Assembly: GCA_014634225.1 (NCBI GenBank)
Contig: BLFN01000201.1
Span: 1,743,959-1,763,958 of the forward strand
Direction: 5' to 3'
DNA length: 20,000 nucleotides
DNA from: Acropora yongei
Taxonomy: Eukaryota; Cnidaria; Anthozoa; Scleractinia; Acroporidae
A model generated the notes under the pieces. That model worked only from the letters and a program-made list of their open reading frames with translations, did no database searches and was not told where the DNA came from. Below are positions 5,147 through 6,270 of the stretch, one piece after another. The stretch's first letter is position 1; each line of letters starts with the position of its first letter. Both the position numbers and the translations under genes were made by a program.

Positions 5147-6270
5147 CTTAAGTTTAGGGTGTTAAATTTAGAGTTTAGAGTGTTAAATTTGGAGTTTAGA
5201 GTGCTTAATTTAGAGTTTACAGCATTGGAATTTAGAGTTAAGAGTGTTGAGTGTAGAGTGTTGAGTTTAGAGTGTTAAGTTTAGAGTCTTAAGTTTAGAG
5301 TGGTAAATTCAGAGTTTGGAGTCTTAAGTTTAGAGTTTACAGTGCTAAATTTACAAATTATAGGCTTTAGGTTAGATTTTAGAGTGTTGAATTAAGAGGT
5401 TAAAGCCTTAAGTTTAGAGTTTTGAGTGTTAAATATGGAGTTAAGAGTGTTAGGTTTAGTGTTAAATTTAGAATTTACAGTCTTAAGTTTAGAGTTCAGA
5501 AATTTAAATTTCGAGTCTAGAGTCTTAAGTTTACAGTTTAGAGTGTTAACGTTAGAGTTGAGAGTAATAAATTTAGAGTTTAGAGTCTTAAGTTCAGAGC
5601 TTACAGTGTTAAATTTAGAGTGTAGAGTGTTCAGTTTAAAGTTTAGAATTTTAAATTTAGAGTTTAGAGTCTTGGAGTTTAGAGTTTAGAGTGTTGAGTT
5701 TAGAGTCTTACATTTAGAGCTTAGGGTCTTAGATTTCGAGTTTAGAATCTTACGTTTAGAGTCTTAAATTTTGAGTTTAGATCTTAGTTTAAAGTCTTAT
5801 GTTTAGAGTTTAGAGGCGGGCTTTAGCTTCCCCAGTCCAAATCCAACGAGAGTTGGATTTCCAACCGGGTACTGCGGACTCTCACCACTACGAGGTACCC
5901 ACCTGAGGAGAGTCAAAAAACTGGAATTCAAGTTACAGTTTAGAGTCCTAGGTTTTGAGTTAAGACACTTAAGTTTAGAGTTTAGAGTCTTAGGGTAAGA
6001 GTCTTAAACTTAAAGTTTAGAGTCTTAAGTTTAGAGTTTACAGTGTTAAATTTAGAGTATAGAGTGCTAAATTTAGGGTTTACAGTCTTGGAATTTAGAG
6101 TTTAGAGTGTTGAGTTTAGATTGTTGAGTTCAGAGTCTTGAGTTTAAAGTTTAGATTGTTAACATTAGAGTTGACAGTCTTAAGTTTAGAGTTTAGAGTA
6201 ATAAATTTAGAGTTGAGAGTCGTAAGTTCAGAGCTTAGAGTGTTAAATTTAGAGTTTGGAGTGTTAAGTT
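5147..6270 (+). repeat. C block, copy 1
   Basis: A roughly 1.1-kb higher-order unit. In order it holds a TTTAGGGTGTTAAATTTGG-type start, AAATTATAGGCTTTAGG (here with an extra G>A-type divergence nearby), AATATGGAGTTAAGAG, TTTCGAGTCTAGAG, GTTAACGTTAGAG, CTTACATTTAGAGCTTAGGG, the GC-rich island, then CCTAGGTTTTGAGTTAAGAC and GTTAACATTAGAGTTGAC. Its left edge has an extra pair of heptads relative to copies 2 and 3. After the island it reads CACTTAAGTTTAGAG where copies 2 and 3 have CACTTAACTTTAGAG, and it lacks two heptads they share. It is thus the outlier of the three. The 87-codon frame at 5426-5689 is not a gene (see rejected items). Confidence 0.85.
5815..5930. other. GC-rich structured island, copy 1
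   Basis: A 116-bp sequence foreign to the heptad pattern, from GGCGGGCTTTAGC to CTGGAATTCA. Complementary segments are 5839-5847 with 5852-5860 (9 bp, AAATCCAAC with GTTGGATTT, closed by GAGA, a GNRA-type loop on the + strand); 5867-5872 with 5895-5900 (GGGTAC with GTACCC); and 5877-5883 with 5908-5914 (GACTCTC with GAGAGTC). The last two pairs cross, so as RNA they would form a pseudoknot or be alternatives. A run of six A follows the last arm. The minus strand is open across the island but has no ATG. I do not recognise the sequence. It could be an old mobile-element fragment, a small RNA or a protein-binding element. Confidence 0.75.

Follow-up and report, generated by a model that had tools for sequence, protein, structure and literature searches.

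The 20-kb window (the whole stretch of DNA analysed here) is a degenerate seven-base satellite that carries three copies of a larger unit, the C block, each with a 116-bp island of non-satellite sequence inside a 273-bp zone that shows no difference among the copies. This three-copy identity most likely reflects recent block copying or homogenisation rather than a proven job of the island, and no cellular function is needed to account for it. We favour, with a probability of about 0.6, an explanation in which non-satellite DNA was trapped once in the heptad satellite and then spread together with the C block, through recent duplication and/or conversion. A short non-satellite piece would have entered the satellite, and the C block, with the island now inside it, would have been copied to further sites of the array via unequal exchange or segmental duplication. 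The identity over 273 bp would be the trace of this recent copying, perhaps with help from conversion between the three C blocks.

Self-similarity of the window peaks at multiples of 7, with values of 0.575 at lag 7 and 0.621 at lag 21. Counts on the + strand are 748 for the heptad TTTAGAG and zero for its reverse complement; TTTAGGG occurs 49 times, and the base counts give a G+C content of 30%. A strong strand asymmetry was observed across the array (1-20000), with C at 5.8% and G at 24.4%. Neither two adjoining TTTAGAG heptads nor any of three sequence pieces of the window were found in literature text.

Anchored alignment places the collinear stretches of the C block on the + strand at 5188-6253 (copy 1), 13781-14856 (copy 2) and 17887-19005 (copy 3). 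As stated in the original prediction, the 273 bp of 5700-5972 are exactly repeated on the + strand at 14282 (14282-14554) and 18417 (18417-18689), and nowhere else in the window. The zone of copy 1 comprises 115 bp of heptads, the island at 5815-5930 and a further 42 bp of heptads; exact matches put the other two islands at 14397-14512 and 18532-18647, also on the + strand. The island is marked as non-heptad by its G+C content of 52.6%, by heptad scoring, in which 80-bp windows within it reach only 9-10 of 80 against the heptad references, and by 7-mer content, common 7-mers being few across 5803-5939. Pairwise exact runs through the zone measure 273 bp between copies 1 and 2, 303 bp between copies 1 and 3 and 341 bp between copies 2 and 3, and these top the 61 maximal exact repeat pairs of at least 80 bp in the window, the fourth being 153 bp long.

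A blastn search of both strands of the window with the three islands masked returned a single 19-bp match to the island (E 0.88), which we took as chance and not as a remnant. The island was also predicted to be the only complex sequence repeated in the array, and this is borne out, since the other complex stretch, the tRNA-bearing insertion of 9964-10319, is present in a single copy. Within the window the island is repeated only inside the C block of about 1.07 kb, the left half of which most resembles heptads from the initial 4.9 kb. Spacings between the zones (5700, 14282 and 18417) are 8582 and 4135, close to multiples of about 2.1 kb, and neighbouring exact repeats at 6216-6493 and 8326-8603 are offset by 2110; together these hint at a loose higher-order period.

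The remainder of the C block varies among copies, again as predicted, with 37 differences in the collinear core of about 1.07 kb and none in the zone. These are 31 substitutions and six indels, four of the latter being 14 or 21 bp long, sizes that fit heptad exchange as expected. By a hand count, private changes number 16 in copy 1, six in copy 2 and 15 in copy 3. The original prediction had set the island with its near flanks apart from the more variable rest of each C block; on the three copies available, a comparison of island and near heptads finds both change-free, so that the island does not stand out. Heptads make up 157 of the 273 bp of the zone and are equally unchanged, and the invariance is therefore not limited to the island. 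The probability of being change-free by chance is 0.012 for the 116-bp island alone and 0.002 for the 157 heptad bases.

When the 37 changes are spread at random, a change-free run of at least 273 bp arises with P 0.0005, or P 0.0025 with substitutions only, and repeats of the test over the core and over 5250-6200 gave P 0.0004 to 0.002. The significance of the gap depends on the independence of the changes. Merging changes no more than 15 bp apart as one event raises P to 0.07 for the core and 0.05 for 5250-6200, and merging within 30 bp chains most of them into six events (P 0.79). Since P is borderline once changes within 15 bp are merged, a gap beyond the C blocks' own rate of change is suggestive, not secure. 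If the changes are independent (P 0.0004 to 0.0025), recency alone would not readily leave such a gap, and a local process is therefore likely unless the changes cluster (P 0.05 to 0.07).

A related block without the island was found at 2847-3598 on the + strand, with 83.6% identity to 5000-5762; its local alignment to the C block stops before the island. Over 5700-5762 this block departs from every C copy at 3 of 63 sites, so the left heptads of the zone are able to change and are not frozen. Further left, 41 of 519 sites differ over six bins (5, 9, 18, 3, 1 and 5), a count in which up to five border columns are included twice. Recent common descent of the C blocks, or homogenisation among them, would thus be the better explanation for the identity of these left heptads.

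Heptads of the zone are atypical, their median 11-mer count outside the C blocks being 1, whereas unchanged sites in other parts of the core have a median of 15. One idea was that the rest of the core had been overwritten by commoner heptads. Heptads at changed sites were not significantly commoner (median count 35 versus 15, P 0.22), and an apparent origin from other heptads was not significantly more frequent for changed bases (17 of 31 versus 27 of 62, P 0.38). This leaves the overwriting idea without direct support, and it was dropped.

Subfamily affinity was scored for each C block in 80-bp windows, with two references of 4.9 kb that contain neither C-block sequence nor the tRNA-bearing insertion: A (1-4900) and B (an equal length drawn from 6700-9950 and 10340-11989). 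Of the 34 scoring windows to the left of the zone, taken over the three copies, 26 favour A, one favours B and seven favour neither; right of it, three of 15 favour A, two B and ten neither. These windows are not independent, the copies being alike. Given the A-like majority on the left, copies 2 and 3 resemble heptads of 1-4900 set among others. By blastn, the right part of the C block also finds its two best relatives within 1-4900 (best 8 of 284 alignments). A reading of the zone as an A-to-B heptad junction was not retained as established, the initial B reference having begun at 6301, so that windows from 6320 matched themselves; with equal references the left side is A-biased and the right undecided, and a position at a junction of heptad subfamilies is possible on these scores. 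Among the alignments listed, the best matches to the right part of the block lie within 1-4900 ahead of those to the left part (2631-2878 and 3006-3535; 321-582 and 1020-1503), whereas inside the C block the right part comes after the left, with the zone between them. The order in the C block may be a rearranged one.

Several explanations of the identical zone have to be weighed against one another. The three island copies share the same C block and are collinear in both flanks, which favours block duplication. The window offers the island no partner beyond its own copies, and the remaining array is thus unable to overwrite it; on this view its identity would reflect recent copying. An ongoing gene-conversion tract among the three C blocks, in which the non-heptad sequence sets a unique pairing register and repair favours it, would also explain why the window's three longest exact repeats all cross the zone and why changes run up to its edges (23 events in 5188-5699 and 14 in 5973-6253). 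No common breakpoint is seen, however: each border is a change private to one copy, at 5699 in copy 2 on the left and at 5973 in copy 1 on the right. The gap is only borderline with clustered changes, and a conversion test would need more than three copies. We consider such a tract unlikely, and a role of the island as anchor point of gene conversion is no more than compatible with the data. The original prediction had also proposed a conserved functional element, either a structured RNA or a protein-binding site comparable to the CENP-B box. Full identity of the three copies would agree with this, and the three stems are present as it described: a 9-bp hairpin with a GAGA loop (5839-5860, + strand; 5839-5847 paired with 5852-5860) and two crossing stems at 5867-5914 on the same strand, one of 6 bp (5867-5872/5895-5900) and one of 7 bp (5877-5883/5908-5914). 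A hairpin of at least 9 bp with a loop of at most 10 was obtained in 17 of 5000 dinucleotide shuffles, crossing exact stems totalling at least 13 bp in 310 of 5000, and both together in 2 of 5000, these features having been picked after the sequence was seen. The 9-bp hairpin is thus uncommon, and the crossing pairs are nearly at chance level. The minimum-energy fold of 5810-5930 is modestly stable on the + strand (z -1.86, 8 of 200 shuffles as good); for the minus strand the values are z -1.44 and 17 of 200. Against a function stand the adjoining heptads, which are equally unchanged, the crossing pairs at near-chance level and the absence of any Rfam match on the island when 5600-6050 was searched at E up to 10; six weak microRNA or snoRNA matches all fell outside it. 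Short motifs had suggested, on inspection, a ribozyme or a relic of a tRNA; this was dropped in the absence of an Rfam match. The best CENP-B-box match in the island (11 of 17, at 5835 on the minus strand) was equalled in 782 of 2000 shuffles, and a resemblance to the CENP-B box was rejected on this ground. On these tests the proposal of a functional element is not supported, and we regard it as improbable. More improbable still is a foldable, non-repetitive anchor that recruits recombination or a DNA-binding protein, spreads the C blocks and homogenises its own surroundings.

The other explanation that deserves attention concerns the source of the trapped DNA: the island could be a piece of some dispersed element, or of a gene, that entered a single time, ahead of the multiplication of the block. 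This may coexist with block duplication, and we regard it as rather less likely than not. The island is unlike the satellite, two reading frames are open across it, and five stop-to-stop frames of at least 25 aa overlap 5800-5940. On the other side, a search with the 63-aa frame, the one frame searched, found no protein with three 5-residue words in common. Island patterns had no match in viral contigs or genome contigs, and blastn of the island against phages and plasmids gave none; these collections are not of eukaryotes, and since the satellite suggests a eukaryote host, such negatives weigh little. The heptad pattern and the tRNA-insertion pattern likewise had no match in viral contigs. 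A clean empty site was also not found, the best of 650 flank joins reaching 50 of 60, a value equalled by 87 of 600 single random heptad joins, and short target duplications around the island mean little because its flanks are heptads. The island may be older than the tRNA-bearing insertion, or may have arisen by end-joining.

That insertion is a clean one. The element at 9964-10319 bears a tRNA-Thr (GGT) at 10130-10202, the one Rfam match to pass the gathering score over the whole window, and is bordered on both sides by a 12-bp target-site duplication (AGTCTTAAGTTT). Exact 62-bp empty sites are present at 12763 and 16122. The element also contains a perfect 65-bp direct repeat and inverted arms of 39 nt that are 97% complementary. 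It resembles what we presume to be a common repeat of stony corals.

Under the preferred explanation of trapped DNA copied with its block, the island is a clear marker of block duplication in a degenerate heptad satellite, and its history is ordinary satellite behaviour. Should the island prove identical genome-wide while the heptads drift, it would become a natural probe of satellite homogenisation and of anchoring by unique sequence.

The CENP-B box of alpha satellite has a 17-bp consensus with essential positions. The island is like it in proposed role alone, as a short invariant site within a satellite that varies, and unlike it in sequence, with 11 of 17 positions at best, a level that the shuffles above reach readily. 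In corals, the available portion of a study of Porites describes a 188-nt satellite with a palindromic telomeric sequence (PMC10236652). The array of the window similarly carries telomere-like motifs, yet differs from the Porites unit as described there in having a 7-bp unit, TTTAGAG, and an island of other sequence (PMC10236652). A second coral paper mentions FISH markers in the part available (PMC12355185), and the coral passages of both papers make no mention of a TTTAGAG heptad satellite (PMC10236652, PMC12355185). According to the excerpted text of a study of Meloidogyne satellites, conserved boxes of 17 and 20 bp, common to many monomers, lie at transitions between monomer types, and low-variability boxes in higher-order arrays have a proposed role in rearrangement (PMC3694981). 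Box 1 in that excerpt agrees with the CENP-B box at 10-12 of 17 positions and at 4-5 of nine essential bases; the island's best match, with 11 of 17 and six essential, is of the same size, yet at chance level (PMC3694981). The zone differs from the boxes described in those passages in spanning 273 bp in three blocks and in having a junction position that is only possible (PMC3694981). As far as the same excerpt goes, it is like them in being a low-variability segment inside a higher-order satellite array (PMC3694981), and this likeness, an analogy, may serve as a lead only.
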